Below the pieces are notes generated by a model that did not search any database, had not been told where the DNA came from, and worked only from the letters and a program-made list of their open reading frames with translations. Below, in pieces: positions 51,501 through 62,933 of a stretch of DNA of 64,000 bases. Origin of the DNA: a virus; the IMG/VR virus record IMGVR_UViG_3300032229_000759, positions 1-64,000 of that record; one strand, given 5' to 3'. The position numbers and the translations under genes are program-made. How positions within the stretch are numbered: position 1 is the first letter of the stretch; each line of letters opens with the position of its first letter.

Positions 51501-53594
51501 GAGGGAATTATACATCAAGAATATGTGGATAATAATTCCATTGCGGTATGTGGAGGACCGTGTTCTTCTCCAGATAGTAATACTACATATAATTTAATTA
51601 AAACATGTCAAGAATTACAACAATATAGTCATTCTTTATCAAGAGTTACTACCGGAGCTACATTGTTTAAACAGTGTCCCAAGCCGTGTGACCAAGGTTG
51701 TACCGAAGACGAATTAACAGACGTATCATTTCCATATTGGTCAGAACCATTACAAATAGGATTAGGGCCAGTGGGTAATGGGCCATGTGTTACTTATGTT
51801 GTATACAGTCCTTGCGCCGGAAACCAGGGCGGATGGTATCAAACTAATCATAATGTTGCTCGGTCTGTAGAAGACGGAATACCACAGGGATGTAGTATTA
51901 TTGCGAGTAATGAGGCAGAAATTAGTTTTAGCACCTACGCTAGAGGAGCGTTTGGAGGATGTTATCCTAAACCAATGAGAACACAAGTATCAGCAGATGG
52001 ACTCTTTAATACAGGAGAAGTAGAAGATTTTAATGGTGGGTTAATGATAAATCAGCCTGGAGCGATAGGAGACGGCATTAATATCACCCAGCCTTCATGC
52101 GGCACGTGTTTCACTCTAGATTATGAAGATCCATTAACTAAAAATAAGTTATATAATGTTTTTGGAGGAGGTTCTTATCCACCTTATCCTGGTAATACTT
52201 CCCAAAGTTGTGAATGCGCTAATTGGGAATATGGCTATTGTAGAAATACCAATAATGCATCTTTATGTGTGTGTAACGGCTTGCAATATGACTATAACGA
52301 ATTTGATTATAATTTTGAATATTGTAGATATAATATTACTTTAAAAGGTTATAAGAGACGAATAAACTATCCTTCTAATAATAGAATAATCACTATTTCT
52401 AAAGCTTGCTCATCAACCTCTGCAGGAACCACTAATGATCCTGGAGAGATTATGGGAGGAGGATCTGGCGGCCGGTCTACTGAAAACTGTATATGGATAG
52501 AATGTCCAGGTGCTATTCCTACAAAATGGCATATTTATGATGTAAAATCTAGAACTCAAAATAATGCATATAATCCTTTATGTCCACAACAATTATGCTC
52601 TGTGAACTATACTAATACCAGCATTACAATAAACCTAGCTTCTGGACAAAGTAAATGTTGGTATTTTACAGAATTAACGAGCAACAATGCTTGTCCATTA
52701 ATCAGTGTATCGGTTCCAGATAATAGCTTTACAGTTAGCGACACCATAGATAGCTATTGTGGATCTTGTTTAAACCAAGAACCAAAATTAACAATGAATC
52801 CTCAACAGCAACCCTGGGATATTATAGAAGAACAAAGAACTTGTGTCTTAGGATATATATTAACAGACGGTAACCCTAACATCGATGGTCCTGTTGGTAT
52901 GGGTGGTAGTGTGTGGTTGGCAGGATATTGCGGCATAAGAGCCTCTTTGTGTTATCAAAGAGAAGGCACAGGCGGCGGTGGACAATGTGGTAAAAATGCT
53001 CCAGATTCTTATCCTTGGAGCACCTGTATTTCTTATTCAGAACCGTCTGTTTGCGTAGGAGGTAATGATTCATCTATTGTGGGAGGCTGTAATATTCCGG
53101 TTAGTTTTCCATATTCTAATGGTAAAGCTGGCGAACGCATAGTATCTTTATGGAAAAAACAAATGTCTCAAATTTGGCTAAATACCGCACCGTGTCATAA
53201 TAATAAAAATAAATATACGGTGGGCGACATTGTGGAGGGGGTGGTGCCTGATTCGTGTAGTGAAGTTAAGTATACTAAAATTAATTATCCTTCTATGTCT
53301 TACAGAGCAACTTTTGGTGATCCGGTGGTTACACAAGGCACGATAGGATTTACAGTAGCATATTATACTTATACTTATCGTAGACCAAAAACTATACAAG
53401 ACGTATTTAAGGGAGAGGCATTAGTAGAACAATGCAATCAGGTTACATCACATAATCCTATAGGATCACTAAATATATCCGAAAAACACAAGACTTTTGG
53501 TTGCAGCAATGTAGCTCAGTGTTATGATACTGATGTTAATGGTTGTGATGATACCAATTATTGTTGTAGATACGGGAAAACTAACTATGAATAA
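45507..53594 (+). CDS. Cysteine-rich giant tail-tip protein (2695 aa)
   Basis: The likely start is ATG 45507 (MGCCSIFNK); a GTG at 45495 inside the previous gene is less likely. The first 900 residues are mixed beta with many aromatic and acidic residues and cysteine pairs (CNCVSD, CSYCLSML). From about residue 1750 the protein becomes very cysteine-rich: by my count about 48 Cys in the last 940 residues, including CSCG-type pairs, CPKPCDQGC and CECANWEYGYC, then ending CDDTNYCCRYGKTNYE. Such density suggests metal binding or disulfides formed after export. No enzyme motif is recognised. Its last eight bases overlap the next gene. It is probably a fibre or tip protein. Confidence 0.5.
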   Translation: MGCCSIFNKSLFSDVNIENLDCNIDSLKKFIRSYDDSISGLWLPIIIKPDQKAEYGELLSPARTTINNPFDPCNCVSDISNDYNELESDTAFNCSYCLSMLPTNFSKSWKLKDTDGNESTQSFIADCTSGACDTRMQKDDYLAKIPYINQKYINQFSDFKYLQEFPSITNGGLGFEHFVFSQGGAQLNSFSYTSNKFYIDWVLKPCLSEIPYDPLTSSYNSKDDHDKAYARAMQTNKTCGNFILTTVNPSYSGINPYYPIFSGLIGDPEQGSVRDSYSKLLPKAEDFTSPYGFTNHTYDNIFVKTERLGSYWKWNYKEGILGWYRHFDKDKKDDTRPIKGIDLYIAPGDVFWATNQGPEPPPIANRGNPDIKSCPSGLKLIKNNIVTGVIPSGSEFTYISSNLYSRFLNIYARIDKNDQLINLTSNEPIKKFRLAAMLCTAPQYDEITIDLLKPNKVAGFDEAPSVLEGRGKNEEKNYITINNFGQNLDYNRDMSTSFIGSVNGFGFIKTKSDLINTLANKYGGYLWCPMDSTLSLTYDTKIKDQCYIDLNYDIVVKNSLVKNQPQCSTEIDCSEFTGNIFSYNQNLSHKHTLSSQINSIKNYATSCNNGENTIAAVVQTAKLSLNNNKIKEIIASSGCSIFNNTYPRIITSSSTNSCRYCGPQSSYGLVTSTDNNVCKNGDGTPDNFCDYKLANFYNNSENPQAGLIGTRIPREIIDGTLYFKRQYNAFVFDPRIDKAAFHHQDGVYFESNVFSSISGSTYFLQNSSSSSNTDGHDVSIQFDTKKVGIKLYSVKIEKLRSSSESSADCIAFPNNEPCKCYGLSLVPSFLFNCRDSSFTFTNDPVFFTPNLSTKYGPTFKAYGGYSEDYINKLFIESNNRIPNHPRIGSVLNYLSKKIDPEFPYGCEQSISLNLPNYVKNSWSFTISNFNTNHADVWAEILENVDLFNPNNYSENEYGETEASTNVGYQRFANKVEINNKTLYDKQKKIISTKNDSIGAINVVLTNPYLVSLMGNSIYLYPPSGTFCSNETVYGGRGDELTIVPIKFTRIPRKQILNFGIHPIQPMGTLSAGAFHPNKGLEYSNTTSPFGPLFTNYSYVRDEYYFDYDRDIFPIENTYTDPITGVETTTTSPQRFQSYVFIGDLTKKVKDVLNQIQNLNNDVSKLRLYLNINNQWYIYNTSNLFGYIANNKAYSGPPLAFEYTHKDYKQTCPILIPSSPKKHITFNYLRSPLDNDVFETRRFNDFPLSVAVAKKYDLSYPFIPEIFNIEEVNNKVIRIEGIRPYFMFEEEFLPTQSNATSIAGLESTVIEKINETNPYVHLVNKEQIWMYKGYGDKRVVASYLLTGRGSDSYYDFLYTNFSNLNIDLLATNSDGYIHNSYKKISSIPSIFIEESYSKNSSPFIAKYLKIEYVDTYGNIIKKQNIRNNARPKAYTYFVLDGRRRDLGDLPEKIQQITLYQSLQQTLKKELDPYLTSINPELRSISFEEKIRQILSNTYSDSSANVQFLKNLPDRAKWSDILNFDGNIINDITKYNFTIHDHKRIYPSSLYLNNFYKLIVNSNSNHYNFRALFNGEDDCNYNGNVYYCIHQKYNTENQDNYNINNNLLSNFNNYLPYIDINIFSNRFSFSAPTPSGTVQISGIHQYLDIDHDWESYHNPVTGSALFWINIDPAFDLKSCLTFDQKMYSDTFRIDDVPYQLYDIDCTTNYNADGCRQTFFPTVPNSEITSYNVFNFETEYLTRVTGTSPFVRFPVYCDSDALDTCGSKSCGIKTVGSTSCSGIYKIYEEKNIPITGIPESVPYIISYEGGNYNPLGNNQPHYIQRFELSPENPLIVSSGSSCSLLPLRPKRDSLNNNNRLSVLNEDYQAALESSIVNDHSATVVDTDIFANEMLFRLMYGEKQKINLNTLNNQNQNITYMDLLKHTDPKVTAKDIYKNIPYEYDTTAPVENRIITGSISVQGTLKVGKSVSIRIGSHNLSCGVIKENGDIKIQANYNGESIEGIIHQEYVDNNSIAVCGGPCSSPDSNTTYNLIKTCQELQQYSHSLSRVTTGATLFKQCPKPCDQGCTEDELTDVSFPYWSEPLQIGLGPVGNGPCVTYVVYSPCAGNQGGWYQTNHNVARSVEDGIPQGCSIIASNEAEISFSTYARGAFGGCYPKPMRTQVSADGLFNTGEVEDFNGGLMINQPGAIGDGINITQPSCGTCFTLDYEDPLTKNKLYNVFGGGSYPPYPGNTSQSCECANWEYGYCRNTNNASLCVCNGLQYDYNEFDYNFEYCRYNITLKGYKRRINYPSNNRIITISKACSSTSAGTTNDPGEIMGGGSGGRSTENCIWIECPGAIPTKWHIYDVKSRTQNNAYNPLCPQQLCSVNYTNTSITINLASGQSKCWYFTELTSNNACPLISVSVPDNSFTVSDTIDSYCGSCLNQEPKLTMNPQQQPWDIIEEQRTCVLGYILTDGNPNIDGPVGMGGSVWLAGYCGIRASLCYQREGTGGGGQCGKNAPDSYPWSTCISYSEPSVCVGGNDSSIVGGCNIPVSFPYSNGKAGERIVSLWKKQMSQIWLNTAPCHNNKNKYTVGDIVEGVVPDSCSEVKYTKINYPSMSYRATFGDPVVTQGTIGFTVAYYTYTYRRPKTIQDVFKGEALVEQCNQVTSHNPIGSLNISEKHKTFGCSNVAQCYDTDVNGCDDTNYCCRYGKTNYE

Positions 53595-54063
53595 TACTGC
53601 TTACTGTGATTTAAAGAGCACGGGCTCTTCGTTTAATAATAAGCCATTATATAAATGCGAGTATTGTGGTTTAACTGTTGGCTTAGAAGATCCTAATACC
53701 AAAATTATGTGTTTTAAAAAGATAGAGGATCTAGCACACGACATACATAAAAATCATTTACAAGACCCTAATACTTTTAAACCCACCCACCTATCTGATA
53801 AAAAAATACCAGAGCTTATATTAGAGGAAGCTAAAAAAGAAGCTATCAATAATGTCGTTACAGAAAATCAAACAGAAGAATTATGCACCCAAGAAGAGAT
53901 TAACAACAGATTAGCTATTTGCAATACTTGCGAATACTTTAAGGATAGTTCTTGCTTACTATGTGGCTGCGTAGTAGTTAGAGAAGCTAATCATAAAAAT
54001 AAGCTAGCCCATCGTAATCAAAAATGCCCTGCGGATAAATGGGGTCCTATTAATTTACCTTAA
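53587..54063 (+). CDS. Zinc-finger protein with CPxxKW tail (158 aa)
   Basis: The likely start is ATG 53587 (MNNTAYC), overlapping the previous stop by eight bases; upstream in-frame Met codons lie inside the previous gene and were not chosen. C24 and C27 begin a first motif (CEYCG), followed by C42 and H51, H54 and H57, a C2H2-like arrangement. C112, C115, C123, C126, C128 and C147 form a second, six-cysteine metal site: 'CNTCEYFKDSSCLLCGC' then 'CPADKW'. The 'CPxxKW' ending is a small domain I associate with proteins beside phage tail genes. Function is unknown. Confidence 0.65.
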   Translation: MNNTAYCDLKSTGSSFNNKPLYKCEYCGLTVGLEDPNTKIMCFKKIEDLAHDIHKNHLQDPNTFKPTHLSDKKIPELILEEAKKEAINNVVTENQTEELCTQEEINNRLAICNTCEYFKDSSCLLCGCVVVREANHKNKLAHRNQKCPADKWGPINLP

Positions 54064-55003
54064 AACGCAAAACCTCTGTTGGTTCTAATCCATATATAGC
54101 AGTATATTGATTAGTGGTGATTTCTCCTTTGTTGTTAATTAACACAGTAACAGGAACCCTGCTATTACCAGACCAACTTTTGAAAAAATGTAGTCCAATA
54201 ACAACCTCTCCTTTAGGCTGGCTGTTTTTGGGCCAAAAAATATTTTCTACCGGCTTATCAGTTAAGTCTGTTGGAAACGCGTTTTTATCAACGTCTAAGA
54301 ACACCCCGTCTATACCATTTCTATACATCCAGCATATATAGCTGTATGAGTTTATTTTAGTAGACTTATAATTAACATGCAAATCTATATCGTCTGTGGT
54401 ATTCCAGGCTATAGAAATTTGTAAATCTCCAGTGCCAGCATTAGATTTTTTGAGACGTTTTTGTATTTCTCTAATATGGCCATTATCACCAGTACCTTGG
54501 TCACCAGTCCCAAGCCCCCTAGATGCTGTATAAGAGCCCTGGGTTGGCTTTGCTGCGGGTTGTTTAATATTTTGGGGTGTCTGATCGGGTACTAACTTAT
54601 TTAAAATTTGAGGATCCAAAGAGGCGACATATGCTGTTTCAGAACTATTGTCCGCAACATCAAGTTCGGGGAATTTAACATCAACCGATTCTTCATGAAC
54701 TACAGCATCAACCATCTTAGAACTTGCGCTTTGACCGATTAGAGATTCTTGTGCTTGATCCTCTAATATTTCTATTGATGGAAATTCTTCATGAGATACT
54801 TGCTGGTCTGTTTGAGTATTAAATGACAAGGTTAATACTATGGGCTTAGTATCATTTTCGCCTAAAGATATCAGGGCTAGTATTAATAGTAATACTGTAT
54901 GAAAAATGGAGCTTTGTAAAACACCACTATCGTATAGAGTTAAAACCCAATTGTCCCAGTAACTAAAGGAGTTTAACCTTTGTCCTGCTGATTTTTTTGC
55001 CAT
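54050..55003 (-). CDS. Membrane-anchored protein with YfaP/DUF2135-like C-terminal domain
   Basis: The preferred start is ATG 55003 (317 residues); a TTG at 55030 is possible but overlaps the next gene more. Residues about 32-47 form one membrane segment (IFHTVLLLILALISL). The middle is acidic then Pro/Gln-rich, followed by 'GLGTGDQGTGDNG'. From about residue 190 a compact beta domain reads 'GDLQISIAWNTTDDIDLHV', 'GVFLDVDKNAFP', 'PVENIFWP', 'PKGEVVIGLHFF'. This matches the YfaP/DUF2135-type order (W-N-x-x-D-D-I-D-L-H-V, L-D-V-D, V-E-N-I-F-W-P). The TonB-like layout with such a domain is one I recall from planctomycete proteins, so it could be host-derived. Its stop overlaps the plus-strand gene by 14 bases. 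Confidence 0.6.
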   Translation of the reverse strand: MAKKSAGQRLNSFSYWDNWVLTLYDSGVLQSSIFHTVLLLILALISLGENDTKPIVLTLSFNTQTDQQVSHEEFPSIEILEDQAQESLIGQSASSKMVDAVVHEESVDVKFPELDVADNSSETAYVASLDPQILNKLVPDQTPQNIKQPAAKPTQGSYTASRGLGTGDQGTGDNGHIREIQKRLKKSNAGTGDLQISIAWNTTDDIDLHVNYKSTKINSYSYICWMYRNGIDGVFLDVDKNAFPTDLTDKPVENIFWPKNSQPKGEVVIGLHFFKSWSGNSRVPVTVLINNKGEITTNQYTAIYGLEPTEVLRFKVN

Positions 55004-55305
55004 TTGTGCCAACCGTTGTTTGGTAACCAATTATTGTCATCATCTTTACGCTTAGGAAAGAGCGTTCCGCCTTTCTTATGCTGTCCAAAAGCTAATACTG
55101 CGCCACAATCAGCACATCTTAACTCATAATAATCATTGCCCTCTACGTTTCTTACTATAAATCTTAAGTTTTGACTCTTACATAGTCCACACTTTTCTTC
55201 AGAAAAAATCTCTTGAATCAAAGCTAATTCTTTAAAAATTTCTTTTTGTCCAGATGCTTCCAGCTCAAAAGACAATTTATCACTAGCTTTGTAAAAGACT
55301 TTCAT
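54973..55305 (-). CDS. Zinc-ribbon protein (110 aa)
   Basis: Cysteines 39, 42, 64 and 67 form CGLC and CADCG, a classic zinc ribbon. The N-terminal helix (about 10-37) and a Lys/Asp/Trp-rich tail flank it. Such small phage proteins often assist recombination or transcription but this one cannot be assigned. It is three bases downstream of the annealing-protein gene and overlaps the membrane-protein gene by about 31 bases, so it is part of the same operon. The SD is GGAAATA, moderate. Confidence 0.65.
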   Translation of the reverse strand: MKVFYKASDKLSFELEASGQKEIFKELALIQEIFSEEKCGLCKSQNLRFIVRNVEGNDYYELRCADCGAVLAFGQHKKGGTLFPKRKDDDNNWLPNNGWHKWQKNQQDKG

Positions 55306-55308
55306 AAG

Positions 55309-56040
55309 TTATTTCCATTGTGGGTTATAGCCTAACATATCTGTAGTAAGTTTTGATGTATCTTGCTGATAAGCGGTCAATTGTTGTATTACGCTAATAG
55401 CTTGATCATGTGATATATTATATATGTTATCATGGTCGATAGCAAGTGATTTTATTAAGTTATGCACATTAACGTTTAGCCTTTGTGCAATCACATCAAT
55501 AAAATTAATTTGATTAACGCTAATTTTAGAAACACTATTTTCATCAGGATGGTCTTCTATTTCCTTTGCTAATTCTTCTGCTGCTACTACCTTTCTTAGC
55601 TTTAGCGCTCTTCTTAAAGCACGACCTTCTGCTCTGGTTTCCGCTACTGCAACAGGATGATTTCTATAGATTTTATCACAATTCCCCCAATAAACATCTG
55701 CTGCTCCGTCTATAGTAATATGTTGCTCATTAGCTAAATATGTAATCGAATGTACTACCGTGGCTCTTTTTTCGTTACCGGGCTCAGGGGACTGAGTAAC
55801 ATTAGAAGTAGAACTGATGAGTATACAATTTAATGCTTCTTCAAATATGCGTCTTAGTCCGTCTGTTGTAGGATTGCCTTGTATTTTTTCGTCATCTGAA
55901 AGCAGACCAAGTACATAGTCTGTCCATGACAAATCACTAGTCTTGGGCTTATCAGTAGTTACCACGACCTCAGCATTCTTGACAACTCCATTTGTTTCAT
56001 TACTAACCACAGACGATTTCTTTTCTTTGTCCTTCGCCAT
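55309..56040 (-). CDS. Putative single-strand annealing protein (Rad52/Erf-like)
   Basis: The start ATG 56040 follows GAGGATTA. The first 30 residues are Lys/Val-rich and look disordered. The core (about 56-155) reads 'PTTDGLRRIFEEALNCILIS', 'ATVVHSITYL', 'ITIDGAADVY', 'HPVAVAETRAEGRALRRAL'. The last element, A-x-x-E-T-R-A-x-G-R-A-L, resembles the 'A-x-x-A-x-T-x-A-x-G-R-A-L' helix of RecT/Erf/Rad52-type annealing proteins. The C-terminal part could bind partners. It lies in a replication-linked operon, which fits recombination-dependent replication. The assignment rests on one helix and the fold order and is not certain. Confidence 0.45.
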   Translation of the reverse strand: MAKDKEKKSSVVSNETNGVVKNAEVVVTTDKPKTSDLSWTDYVLGLLSDDEKIQGNPTTDGLRRIFEEALNCILISSTSNVTQSPEPGNEKRATVVHSITYLANEQHITIDGAADVYWGNCDKIYRNHPVAVAETRAEGRALRRALKLRKVVAAEELAKEIEDHPDENSVSKISVNQINFIDVIAQRLNVNVHNLIKSLAIDHDNIYNISHDQAISVIQQLTAYQQDTSKLTTDMLGYNPQWK

Positions 56041-56044
56041 TTAA

Positions 56045-56833
56045 TTAATCCTCTATTTCTATAAGACTATTTGTTTGATAAAGCTTATTATTGAGTACTT
56101 CTAATAATTTCTTATATAAGACGTTGCTACGAGCTTGTGAAAAATCATGAGTTTGTTTAATTCTAATTAGTTTAAGTCCTTTACCAATAATTAAACCGTT
56201 TTTCTTCTCGTCATATTTTTGATTTTTCTTCAAGGCATCTTCGCCCCATATGGGCAAAAAGTGTGATGGTCCATCCACCTCAATAGCCAAATTTATAGTA
56301 GGCAGAAAAAGGTCTATTTGCAACTTGGTATTTGATAATATTTGCTCTTTGTGAAAATCTACGTGCCAACCATCCACTAGTAACTTGTTTAATAGAAATT
56401 TTTCTAGCTTAGAACCAACCTTGCTACTAAGTCTAGCAGCATCATTCGCTGCTTTAACAATATTTTCTTTGTCTTCGATACTTAATTTTTCCCAGTTGGT
56501 TTTACTTTTTTGTTTTCTTTGTTTCAGTTCCTTTGCAGACAAACTCTCCCACGACTGCATCACCCCATTACCTATCTTATTTTTGGTGTCTTCACTTCTG
56601 GACATTCCTTTTGTGGGATGTTTATGCTTACCTGTAGATAGAGCGTTTTTTTGAGCAAGACTTTTGTCTCTGATCGGAACTTTGAATTTTTTTGCATCTC
56701 TTCTAATTTTATTAGCATATGTGTTATACTGTTCAGCAATATCGCCAAAGCTCATTTTTTTATTTAAATAAGTATCTAATATTAGCTGTTTTTTAGTCTT
56801 ATCATTCAGACTATCATAGTTTTGTGATGACAT
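56045..56833 (-). CDS. Homing endonuclease, Vsr/DUF559-like with N-terminal HTH
   Basis: This free-standing nuclease is 262 residues long. The strong SD is GAGGAGA upstream of ATG 56833. Residues about 27-55 form a helix-turn-helix (MSFGDIAEQYNTYANKIRRDA). Residues about 72-115 contain 'HPTKGMSRSEDTKNKIGNG', a NUMOD3-like DNA-binding region. Residues 143-230 are a PD-(D/E)xK-type nuclease close to DUF559/Vsr, with E144, D174, E185 and D187 as candidate catalytic residues ('LQIDLFLP...LAIEVDGPSHF') and 'LIRIKQ' at the last strand. The two overlap bases with the 155-residue gene upstream show dense packing. Such nucleases are mobile; it interrupts the glycan cluster and the annealing gene. Confidence 0.65.
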   Translation of the reverse strand: MSSQNYDSLNDKTKKQLILDTYLNKKMSFGDIAEQYNTYANKIRRDAKKFKVPIRDKSLAQKNALSTGKHKHPTKGMSRSEDTKNKIGNGVMQSWESLSAKELKQRKQKSKTNWEKLSIEDKENIVKAANDAARLSSKVGSKLEKFLLNKLLVDGWHVDFHKEQILSNTKLQIDLFLPTINLAIEVDGPSHFLPIWGEDALKKNQKYDEKKNGLIIGKGLKLIRIKQTHDFSQARSNVLYKKLLEVLNNKLYQTNSLIEIED

Positions 56834-59186: not shown

Positions 59187-60109
59187 AAAATAAATGCCTT
59201 GTTGTTGGTTTGTACAATAACAGAATTAAATACCTTTGCAAAAGATTCGAAACTAAATTTATTTTTTATACTTATTGAACCATCTTCTGTGTTCTTTGGG
59301 TCAAGATTCTGAGTAACAATATTCATTAATTCATTTGGCTCATTAACAAAAACTAAGTTATCAATATCCCCATACTCTCTATTCACTGCTGGATGAGACA
59401 TAGTGACGCCCACACAACCAGCAGCCACAGCACATAAAAGATTAATAATATTATGTTCAGCTAAATCTATAACTACTTTATAGTGATTGAAAATCTCGTT
59501 AAGAGACTTTGTGGACATGCTGAGATTAGTTATAATGTCTCCTGACAAACCAGCATTTTTTGCTACGGCAGCAATTTGTTGAGCATACGGCAATCCTTCT
59601 GTGTTTATAACTAAAATGTCTTTTGTTCGTTCGTTGAACGGAGATAAACTTTTAAAGTTTGCTGGTATGCCATAATTGATTAGATAACTATTATCTAGTT
59701 TCCATGATTCTTGAGCAGCGCCGGTGAAGAATATTTTAACATCTTTTTTAAGTCTTTGATTAATAAGTGCTAGATCTTCTTTTTTAATATACGGAGGTCT
59801 GATTGAATGAGTGCATAAAATACCGTTTAAATGAAAATTTTTAAATGTATTATTTTGACTATAACCAATAATATTATTACTTATAGTTAAGTTGTAATTA
59901 TACAATGTGAGGTCTTTGGGCTCTAGATTGATTAGGTTGGGTATTGATATTGTGGGCTTGGCCTGAGCATTTACAATATTAAAATACTTATGATGATCTA
60001 ATGATACCAAGGTATGATCAAAACAATTATTTTGTGGAGCATATAGAATATTATATGGTTCCTGAGTAAATTTTTGTAGTATATTACCCGTAGTAAAACC
60101 TAGATACAT
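59183..60109 (-). CDS. GT-B-like glycosyltransferase (308 aa)
   Basis: The fold order is two-lobed: an N-terminal lobe up to about 150 (GFTTGNILQKFTQEPYNILYAPQ, 'IFFTGAAQESWKL') and a C-terminal lobe with 'DILVINTEGLPYAQQIAAVAKNAG' and 'VVIDLAEHNIINLLCAVAAGCVGVTM' (about 165-240), then 'YGDIDNLVFVN'. This last stretch corresponds to the nucleotide-sugar donor region of GT4-type enzymes, but the strict EX7E is not present ('EHNIINLLCAVAAG' takes its place). The gene overlaps its neighbours by 10 and 4 bases. A role in glycan synthesis is probable; the substrate is unknown. Confidence 0.55.
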   Translation of the reverse strand: MYLGFTTGNILQKFTQEPYNILYAPQNNCFDHTLVSLDHHKYFNIVNAQAKPTISIPNLINLEPKDLTLYNYNLTISNNIIGYSQNNTFKNFHLNGILCTHSIRPPYIKKEDLALINQRLKKDVKIFFTGAAQESWKLDNSYLINYGIPANFKSLSPFNERTKDILVINTEGLPYAQQIAAVAKNAGLSGDIITNLSMSTKSLNEIFNHYKVVIDLAEHNIINLLCAVAAGCVGVTMSHPAVNREYGDIDNLVFVNEPNELMNIVTQNLDPKNTEDGSISIKNKFSFESFAKVFNSVIVQTNNKAFIL

Positions 60110-61227
60110 AGACGCTCTCCAATACTATGGTAACTAAATTGATCTATAATACTTTTACCGACTTCTCTTTTATCGGCAAGTTTTTGTTTCTCTGATTTGT
60201 GCATAGCGTAGACGGATCTCATATGCTCTATTAAATTGTACATATCTATTTTATACCAATATTCATGGGCATTATATAAATCAAATTCATTTGTTAGCGG
60301 CCTATTATTCAATATAACAGGTGTTTTATGACTTTTGATCAACCAGCCGTTATCGTTATTAATATAGTCGGTCATACCAGTATTGTTTGTCACAATAGGG
60401 GTTTTACCTAGAACCAGTGCTTCTGCTGCTGGTCTACAAAATGCTTCGCCCATAGAGGGCATTACAAAACAATCTCCAGAGTTATGTAATCCCACGATAT
60501 CTTTATCGGATAGTCTTTCTGTAATAATTAATTCTTTTTTGTATTTAGTACTAATATTAAGTTTTCTTTTTAAATTATCTATGTCTTTTTCGATAACTCG
60601 ATGAGATTCTGCTGGGCTCATGCCCCCAATACTACTTTTAATAATCAAAGACACCGGTTGTGTAATATCAAAAGCCAAATGAAAAGCTGTGACTAAATCC
60701 AAAACATTTTTACGTTCATTATATTCCCCTATAAAATAAAATTTAAAGGTTTTATCTATAGCAGGATGCAGAGTTAATTTATGAGTTTGATTATTTTTAA
60801 TAAAGTCTATGTCAAGAGGCTGGGATATAACCCTGATGGGCTTAATGACTCCAGACTTTTGTAGACACAATTTTTCTCTGTTGCTAGGTACCCAAACTTC
60901 ATCCATTTGATTGATATTATTAATACAGGTAGACTGTCCTATGTTATTGGTTTCTAAGACAAAGAGGCCTATATTTTTTGCATATTTTTTATTGAGAAAT
61001 AAATTATGGGGCAATACTTTTTGTATAACCACATCGTATTGATCAAAATAAGCATTCTCATACGCCAAGATTTGTTCATCTGGTTCGTATTCTGATGGAG
61101 CGCTGGTGAAAAAAATGGGCCTAGTAGTGAGATTGTTATACTTAGTGCCCAGGGCTTTTATATAGCTTTGTGTAGCTAAACCCCACCCATCATTTTGCCT
61201 ATACGGTCCTACAAATAAAATATTCAT
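60100..61227 (-). CDS. GT4-family glycosyltransferase (375 aa)
   Basis: A complete GT-B protein. The N-terminal 'MNILFVGPYRQNDGWGLATQSYIKAL' is the usual GT4 start. Residues about 140-210 contain 'FYFIGEYNERKNVLDLVTAF', the linker strand that begins the donor-binding domain. The EX7E motif is E261 to E269 in 'MGEAFCRPAAEALVLGKTPIVTNNTG', with M259 marking the stretch. This family transfers a sugar from an activated donor; retaining stereochemistry is usual but not proven here. It overlaps the next glycosyltransferase gene by ATGA (61224-61227). Confidence 0.85.
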   Translation of the reverse strand: MNILFVGPYRQNDGWGLATQSYIKALGTKYNNLTTRPIFFTSAPSEYEPDEQILAYENAYFDQYDVVIQKVLPHNLFLNKKYAKNIGLFVLETNNIGQSTCINNINQMDEVWVPSNREKLCLQKSGVIKPIRVISQPLDIDFIKNNQTHKLTLHPAIDKTFKFYFIGEYNERKNVLDLVTAFHLAFDITQPVSLIIKSSIGGMSPAESHRVIEKDIDNLKRKLNISTKYKKELIITERLSDKDIVGLHNSGDCFVMPSMGEAFCRPAAEALVLGKTPIVTNNTGMTDYINNDNGWLIKSHKTPVILNNRPLTNEFDLYNAHEYWYKIDMYNLIEHMRSVYAMHKSEKQKLADKREVGKSIIDQFSYHSIGERLCI

Positions 61228-62903
61228 TCTTTTATATTTTCTTTCATATGAGCATATTGAATAAAGTCTTCATTTTTTAATTCTGGCAAATGATGCTTTG
61301 CGTTCTGAGCTAAGTTATTATTATTAATCATATTGTTAAGTACGGCTGTGGCCTTATCTAGACCGTAGGGTTCTGTTTGTATACCATTAATAGCGAATCC
61401 ATAGTCTAGGTCACGTATCATATTTAATAGCAATATAGAAGATGCGAACTGGTGATGGGGCATATGAGCTGATACCATCTTGGTAACAATATCGTATGGA
61501 TTTCTATTATTCACAGGTAAAGACTGTAAATCAATACTGTTCAATACGGGAAGATTTTCTGCCCATTTTCCTTGTAAACCAACCAATTGTACATTATCAA
61601 AATATTTTTCCCATTTTTCAGCAATATGGTCCCAATTATAGTGATCTTCTGTTAATTTTCTGGTTTCAAACCGTTTCTGTTCTTTCAGTACGCTGGGCAT
61701 AGCTTGGTATTCAGATAAAATTTCTATTAAATGGTTATTGTCTGGATATACTCTAATAGCTTTTGTCTCTAGTTCTTTAAAGCCTTGTCTAATTTTAATC
61801 GGATATCCATTGATTTTTCTGACAACATCACTCATCGCACTATAATCAACAGATGCTACTGGAACTCCACAAGAGGATGCTTCTACTTGAGGCATGCCGA
61901 AGCCTTCGCAAATAGCATATTGCACATAGATATCAAAAAGATTAATCACAACAGATAAATTTTGTGAAGAAATGCCTGAACTTACATTAGGCATAGAAAA
62001 AGATTTTTGACTACATTTTGGGCAATATGAAACAGGGTGCTGGTATAGGCTGGGTGCAAAGTATCCACAATTTTTACAACTATAAGTAAATAGTACTCTG
62101 TTGCCTACTTTATATTCTTTAAGTAGTTGAGGAATATCCCAACCCGCATCCGGATAGCTCGTATGCAAATACAGATAAGTCTTTTCTCCAATAGGATTTT
62201 TTTCTCTTTTGAATTTATGGAGTAATCCCTTAAGGCTGGAGAATAATTCTGGTACAAGTTTGCGTTTTTGATTACGCATAATACTGCCAATAATAAAGCT
62301 GTCCGGATCAAAACCAAAATGTTCTTTAAGACCCGATCTGTTGTCTATAGCTTTGAATGTATTAAGATCTACGCCGGGAGACGTAGTATCTATGTATCTA
62401 ATTTTATTATTGCTTTGTTCTAGCAGAGTATCTCTGCCGAAATCTGAGTAAGTAAAAATAGCGTCGGCGTGTAAGAATGTATCGAGCCATTCTTCTTGTT
62501 GTGGGGCAGAATCTACCGTGGGCATCAAGACCCAGTGATAAAATGGTCTTAATGGAGAGAATTGTTGGTATGAACTCATCCAATAATCTCTGACATCGAC
62601 TACTATATCGGGCTGAAAATCTAGAAGAACTCTTTCAAATCTCCATCTGCCGAATTGATTTTCCATAGAGCTATTATATTCTGAAGCCCTAGGGTCTTTA
62701 TCGTCAACAGCATTTGCATAATATCTCCAGTGAATACCCACGTCTTTAGGGTCGTTCACCTTTCCATAAGAAGCAAATTCTGCGATTTCGTACTTACCAG
62801 TACGATGCAGCCTTTGCAGTATTTCCCTAGCATAAGTACCAAAACCAGAATTTAAAAAACTAGCTTCGGAACACATCAAAATTTTAAGTTTGGTTTTAGA
62901 CAT
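61224..62903 (-). CDS. GT4-family glycosyltransferase with inserted zinc ribbon (559 aa)
   Basis: The start is ATG 62903 (MSKTKLKILMCSEASF); an upstream Met at 62933 lies inside a terminator hairpin and was not chosen. 'ASFLNSGFGTYAREIL' (13-28) is the N-terminal donor-lobe pattern of GT4. An EX7E motif is present at E333-E341 ('CEGFGMPQVEASSCGVPV'). A zinc ribbon (C276, C279, C294, C297) is inserted in the C-terminal lobe between 'VLFTYS' and 'SLVVVINLFDIY', which is not usual for GT4. A C-terminal extension of about 150 residues is helical. The unusual insert may set substrate or partner specificity. Confidence 0.8.
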   Translation of the reverse strand: MSKTKLKILMCSEASFLNSGFGTYAREILQRLHRTGKYEIAEFASYGKVNDPKDVGIHWRYYANAVDDKDPRASEYNSSMENQFGRWRFERVLLDFQPDIVVDVRDYWMSSYQQFSPLRPFYHWVLMPTVDSAPQQEEWLDTFLHADAIFTYSDFGRDTLLEQSNNKIRYIDTTSPGVDLNTFKAIDNRSGLKEHFGFDPDSFIIGSIMRNQKRKLVPELFSSLKGLLHKFKREKNPIGEKTYLYLHTSYPDAGWDIPQLLKEYKVGNRVLFTYSCKNCGYFAPSLYQHPVSYCPKCSQKSFSMPNVSSGISSQNLSVVINLFDIYVQYAICEGFGMPQVEASSCGVPVASVDYSAMSDVVRKINGYPIKIRQGFKELETKAIRVYPDNNHLIEILSEYQAMPSVLKEQKRFETRKLTEDHYNWDHIAEKWEKYFDNVQLVGLQGKWAENLPVLNSIDLQSLPVNNRNPYDIVTKMVSAHMPHHQFASSILLLNMIRDLDYGFAINGIQTEPYGLDKATAVLNNMINNNNLAQNAKHHLPELKNEDFIQYAHMKENIKE

Positions 62904-62905
62904 AG

Positions 62906-62933
62906 AAAAATGGGGGTGTGTTCGCACCCCCAT
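62906..62933 (-). terminator. Rho-independent terminator after ssb
   Basis: The nine-base arms ATGGGGGTG and CACCCCCAT (62910-62918 and 62925-62933, plus-strand positions) pair with no mismatch across a six-base loop. On the minus strand a T-run follows (62909-62906). The hairpin is symmetric and also has a T-run on the plus side, so it could work in both directions. The next gene's start codon lies three bases beyond the T-run. Confidence 0.85.

Follow-up and report, generated by a model that had tools for sequence, protein, structure and literature searches.

A membrane-anchored YfaP-like protein of large phages probably infecting Planctomycetota carries the helix motif of TonB/TolA-type force transducers

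One gene of an uncultured phage raised the question of why a virus should encode a protein with a single membrane segment, a long linker and a YfaP-like beta domain, and of which host it was made for. The gene lies in a window of 64,000 nucleotides, the whole stretch of DNA analysed here, which forms part of a 112-kb virus record (IMG/VR IMGVR_UViG_3300032229_000759). A reading made from the sequence only had regarded this protein as abnormal phage cargo that hints at a host in the Planctomycetota and at a role in the host envelope, perhaps receptor masking or lysis control. Coordinates of the gene, its parts and its surroundings are compiled in Table 1.

Table 1. Features of the YfaP-like gene and its surroundings (positions in the 64,000-nt window).
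Feature	Position	Strand	Basis
CDS, membrane-anchored protein with YfaP-like C-terminal domain, 317 aa	54050..55003	-	Open frame, at least 25 viral contigs, purifying selection
SHLS motif in membrane helix, S31-x3-H35-x6-L42-x3-S46	54866..54913	-	Sequence, conservation
Conserved K53-P-I-V-L-T-L-S-F61, putatively resembling the TonB D-box	54821..54847	-	Conservation
Variable linker, residues 62-174, predicted disordered	54482..54820	-	pLDDT, composition, dN/dS 0.24-0.64
YfaP-like beta domain, residues 175-317	54053..54481	-	AF2, phrog_1735, invariant residues
Start of YfaP-like gene, written inside zinc-ribbon gene	54973..55003	-	
Zinc-ribbon gene, 110 aa, directly upstream, 31-nt overlap with start of YfaP-like gene	54973..55305	-	
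Convergent zinc-binding-like gene (DUF6171-like), downstream, overlaps 3' end by 14 nt	53587..54063	+	
243-aa protein without family match, upstream	55309..56040	-	
262-aa endonuclease-like protein	56045..56833	-	HNH/homing endonuclease PHROGs
Two adjoining glycosyltransferase-family genes	60100..62933	-	phrog_2170
Giant open frame, 4009 aa	1080..13109	+	
Giant open frame, 3160 aa	24696..34178	+	
Giant open frame, 2699 aa	45495..53594	+	

The gene was read without interruption from an ATG at 55003 to a stop at 54050. At least 25 IMG/VR contigs, the longest of them 230 kb, retain the gene, and dN/dS is 0.04-0.16 in the domain; the frame thus did not arise by chance. From the sequence, the protein was divided into about 28 putatively cytoplasmic residues, a membrane helix, a linker of 113 residues and a C-terminal beta domain. 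As had been proposed, there is a single membrane segment, a hydrophobic helix near the N-terminus (residues ~29-47, hydropathy 2.1). The "Pro/Gln linker" of the same reading is present and contains 12 Gln, but only 7 Pro compared with 12 Ser and 19 Asp/Glu. A first AF2 model calculated from four sequences was poor outside the C-terminus, with pLDDT <50 for residues 49-192. When 22 homologues were supplied, the domain was modelled with a mean pLDDT of 95.7 and a pTM of 0.89. In close pairs of sequences, the helix module and the domain are under strong purifying selection (dN/dS 0.06-0.25 for the membrane module) and the linker is under weaker selection. The linker, fast-evolving and predicted disordered, thus matches the extended or disordered, periplasm-spanning linker of TonB/TolA force transducers.

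The identity of the domain was assessed by profile, fold and literature searches. Pfam and NCBIfam gave no significant match to the window protein. DUF2135 (PF09906) scored E 0.21 against the viral relative L003, at 12.1 bits below the gathering cut-off of 22, and hhalign to E. coli YfaP gave E 0.0021 with a probability of only 13.6%. Both E. coli YfaP and the window-type domain contain W-(N/D)-T...DxDLHV and LDxD signatures, and invariant residues were present in the homologue alignment. The profile phrog_1735 matched the domain at E 6.8e-12; here only the C-terminal 137 residues aligned, with positions 412-543 of 673, and not the whole protein. A phage relative of this type is annotated COG4676. 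Neither the protein nor the domain had a significant match in the PDB by sequence, and a fold search of the PDB with the high-confidence domain model yielded nothing convincing (best E 8e-3, TM <0.35). Among predicted viral structures, the best match was an uncharacterised 713-aa protein of Cellulophaga phage phi4:1 (TM 0.69, E 1e-5). Thus the YfaP/DUF2135-like beta domain that had been proposed is real, and its signatures are shared, but the family label rests on weak scores. Judged by sequence likeness, it is best named YfaP-like and not filed in DUF2135, a label with real but formally weak support. The literature searched on YfaP/DUF2135 held nothing on function. E. coli yfaP stands in the same gene row as yfaS, which we take to be a macroglobulin gene. 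In Pseudomonas, the macroglobulin MagD of the mag operon assembles with its operon partners into complexes in the periplasm (PMC5764988). The Mag system is offered as a lead only, and any correspondence of a Mag protein to YfaP is conjectural.

The membrane helix, which had been recognised earlier as a membrane segment but not as carrying a TonB/TolA-type motif, reads S31-SIF-H35-TVLLLI-L42-ALI-S46 and is an exact SHLS tetrad (S-x3-H-x6-L-x3-S). Through this tetrad TonB and TolA contact ExbB and TolQ, and its Leu and Ser are the less conserved positions in Ton (PMC12215075). Among 20 diverged viral and planctomycete sequences, the first Ser was found in 20/20, His in 16/20 and Leu or Met at +7 in 20/20, while the last Ser varied. 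The remaining 4/20, in which Asn replaces the essential His, are all viral. Behind the helix, an alternating K-P-I-x-L/I-x-L-S-F strand is kept across homologues at the position of the TonB D-box (motor box, ISVTMVT), which binds ExbD (PMC12215075); its likeness to the D-box is one of sequence and position. Profile comparisons with E. coli TonB (E 0.11) and TolA (E 0.0077) were weak, so that the resemblance stands at the level of motifs and common descent is not proven.

Outside this viral group, the domain was met in another form. It occurs, without the anchor, in 380 phage records as part of a soluble protein of ~670 aa, and the remaining viral matches are of this phrog_1735 type (665-687 aa, no helix, no zinc-ribbon neighbour), including all five cases examined from Ackermannviridae, Schitoviridae, Caulobacter and Alteromonas phages. 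The YfaP-like domain is therefore common in phages and no viral group other than this one yielded the membrane-anchored form, so that the verdict of abnormal cargo stands for the anchored form but not for the domain. A contig of a planctomycete genome (L033) also codes for a phrog_1735-like protein, of 720 aa, a type that our searches otherwise met in phages. Perhaps the contig is viral and was binned with the bacterium, or perhaps the protein is a cellular form.

The surroundings of the gene are conserved. The zinc-ribbon gene is directly upstream at all viral loci of the membrane-anchored type (L089 included), and the YfaP-like start codon lies 31-52 nt inside it wherever measured. No Shine-Dalgarno-like sequence was apparent before this start, and the first residues, MAKK, may be shared because of the overlap with the zinc-ribbon gene rather than through selection at the protein level. 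The same DUF6171-like neighbour was present in L002, L003 and L013, and the entire gene neighbourhood was shared by the four viral lineages with long flanks. SSB, endonuclease and glycosyltransferase genes are held in the same region. The order of the 243-aa and the 262-aa genes was constant in all related viruses examined. The phrog_2170 pair possibly serves modification of DNA or of envelope glycans. The three giant frames are probably structural or tail proteins; the first of them had no match in PHROGs. The simplest account is that the YfaP-like gene is a stable part of its phage region and is carried as a host-type transducer.

Cellular relatives were searched by a pattern scan of 84,980 prokaryote species and by a profile search covering the Planctomycetota. 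The scan confirmed only two full-length relatives, both in planctomycete metagenome-assembled genomes (MAGs) and both among ordinary chromosomal genes; it detects relatives close to the query patterns, and rarer carriers elsewhere are thus possible. Both MAGs belong to one family of 72 genomes, 10 of which matched the profile and about 8 of which were read as membrane-anchored carriers. Across the phylum, 11 of 392 genomes matched; most of these matches were to the C-terminal domain, and the proteins were often built differently, for example with a GYF2-like head and a helix. In the searches made, the full-length form is restricted to this one family. A shared neighbourhood was not found among the cellular YfaP-type genes.

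The tree of 31 domains united 14 viral sequences and one planctomycete gene (L048) in a supported clade (100/98) and five viral sequences in a second (100/99), with planctomycete genes between the two. A single viral origin was rejected with all 19 viral sequences (p-AU 0.015); a single viral clade was compatible with the data when only 4 were used (p-AU 0.41). Since viral and planctomycete genes interleave, gene exchange has taken place between these viruses and the 72-genome family, so that this family is their probable host and the likeliest one. L048 (5640-6794, minus strand, genome G443) is a chromosomal copy beside RND-efflux-like genes, and its place inside the viral clade may mean that the gene passed from virus to bacterium. 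A search of 20 kb of the window against the 72 genomes, run without a positive control and therefore uninformative, gave no DNA match, so neither a prophage nor a misbinned contig was seen. The planctomycete tie thus came out well on full-length relatives, family carriers and tree, and the database search that had been advised found full-length cellular relatives only in planctomycetes; two points had escaped the sequence-only reading, namely the gene's strict association with the zinc-ribbon gene and its exchange between virus and host.

These distributions bear on two further explanations. The gene could be a passenger acquired from the host and without a role in infection, as the full-length form is common to planctomycete chromosomes; this is made very improbable by the purifying selection on the gene and by the 25 or more viral contigs that retain it beside the same neighbour. 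A spanin-type protein, bridging or disrupting the envelope at the end of infection, would likewise have an inner-membrane helix and a periplasmic domain, joined by a linker of sufficient reach. Against it, the host family carries relatives of the gene as residents of its chromosomes, and the genes around it (SSB, endonuclease, zinc-ribbon and glycosyltransferase) include no holin or endolysin, which leaves a spanin-type protein improbable. A unimolecular spanin in particular was rejected: no lipobox, no second (C-terminal) membrane segment and no lysis neighbours were found. The earlier suggestion of lysis control gained no support.

The presence of motors was then compared between hosts and viruses. 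Five host-family genomes had 1-5 MotA_ExbB matches each, and five sampled virus records had none. The TonB_C domain was absent from seven host-family genomes, with positive controls in E. coli, Caulobacter and Bacteroides. The gene next to ExbB-ExbD encodes an S-x3-H helix in 5 of 6 intact host-family operons (ExbD recognised by sequence pattern), and A-x3-H in the sixth. Host motors, the missing TonB C-terminal domain and the S-x3-H helix behind the operons together make a link of the protein to motors plausible. No motor genes adjoined cellular YfaP-type genes when single E. coli ExbB, ExbD and TolR queries were used, an insensitive search. In the planctomycete operons L135, L137, L141, L143 and L146, the gene behind ExbB-ExbD codes for a large protein whose helix has the S-x3-H pattern, in some cases with toroid-like repeats. 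Such proteins are candidate force transducers with further tip types.

The same helix type was also seen on planctomycete proteins labelled from sequence as vWA-like, toroid-like and GYF2-headed. This spread over many different proteins would suit a plain membrane-anchored periplasmic binding protein, in which the S-x3-H helix is a mere anchor and no motor is involved; superinfection exclusion or receptor masking would then follow from binding of the YfaP-like domain to a receptor or to an incoming tail component. Exclusion proteins are usually built as a single helix with a periplasmic domain, as here, and the gene lies beside giant putative tail genes. However, a mere anchor would give little reason for a buried Ser/His pair to persist through so much divergence, and genes behind host ExbB-ExbD operons show this pattern too. 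A binding protein of this kind is a serious but rather unlikely explanation.

With moderate confidence, we favour a host-type, TonB/TolA-like force transducer that is coupled to ExbB/ExbD, bears a YfaP-like tip and is shared by phages and their planctomycete hosts. Its SHLS helix would dock on an ExbB/TolQ-type motor as in TonB and TolA, and the conserved strand K53-F61 would stand in place of the ExbD-binding D-box. The disordered linker would span the periplasm, and the YfaP-like fold would replace the TonB C-terminal domain at the distal end. During infection, the protein would insert into the inner membrane and bind the ExbB-ExbD-type motor of the host. There it might compete with host transducers, closing uptake routes or excluding other phages; alternatively, the YfaP-like domain might select a target towards which the motor is directed, so that the protein acts on the outer envelope. 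Remodelling of the envelope or exclusion of further phages would be the likeliest benefits to the phage. The location and role in the envelope that had been suggested are upheld in this form, the location itself by inference. Counting against a transducer are the four viral sequences with Asn for His, the weak profiles, the lack of adjoining motor genes and the lack of a host link at the DNA level. More tentatively, and as a possibility short of an even chance, a group of large planctomycete phages may encode, in a conserved gene, its own proton-motor force transducer and take over host ExbB-ExbD-type motors for work on the outer envelope. If true, force transducers would have a new tip class with a member encoded by viruses, one that phage and host have exchanged repeatedly.

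Through this locus, a group of large uncultured phages can be tied by sequence to a single planctomycete family. The SHLS force-transducer class would gain a YfaP-like tip and members in viruses, and the YfaP-like domain, so far little studied, acquires a testable setting as the distal part of an envelope protein driven by a motor. Should binding to host motors be real, phages would tap or jam proton-driven envelope machinery from within.

Compared with known systems, the protein resembles E. coli YfaP and DUF2135 (PF09906) in the two signatures and in domain length; YfaP itself seems to be made with a signal peptide and to lack an anchor-linker, whereas the window protein is anchored and falls below the Pfam cut-off. 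The phrog_1735 phage proteins share the YfaP-like domain but carry it mid-protein, have no membrane helix and form a separate tree clade, and in some phages their gene adjoins a MoxR-like ATPase gene. The 713-aa phi4:1 protein, the best viral match by fold, is close to them in size. With TonB and TolA, the protein has in common the three-part build, the SHLS helix, the conserved strand after it, the disordered linker and a globular distal domain; it differs in being virus-carried, in its weak N-terminal profile similarity and in its distal domain, which is YfaP-like and not a TonB/TolA C-terminal domain. SHLS transducers with a vWA tip have been described in Planctomycetes and other phyla (Williams-Jones et al. 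2025, PMC12204202), and the part of that paper drawn on here mentions no virus-borne case. The window tip is YfaP-like with no vWA match, and its YfaP relatives are not beside motor genes, but both proteins combine an SHLS helix with a linker and a non-TonB distal domain.
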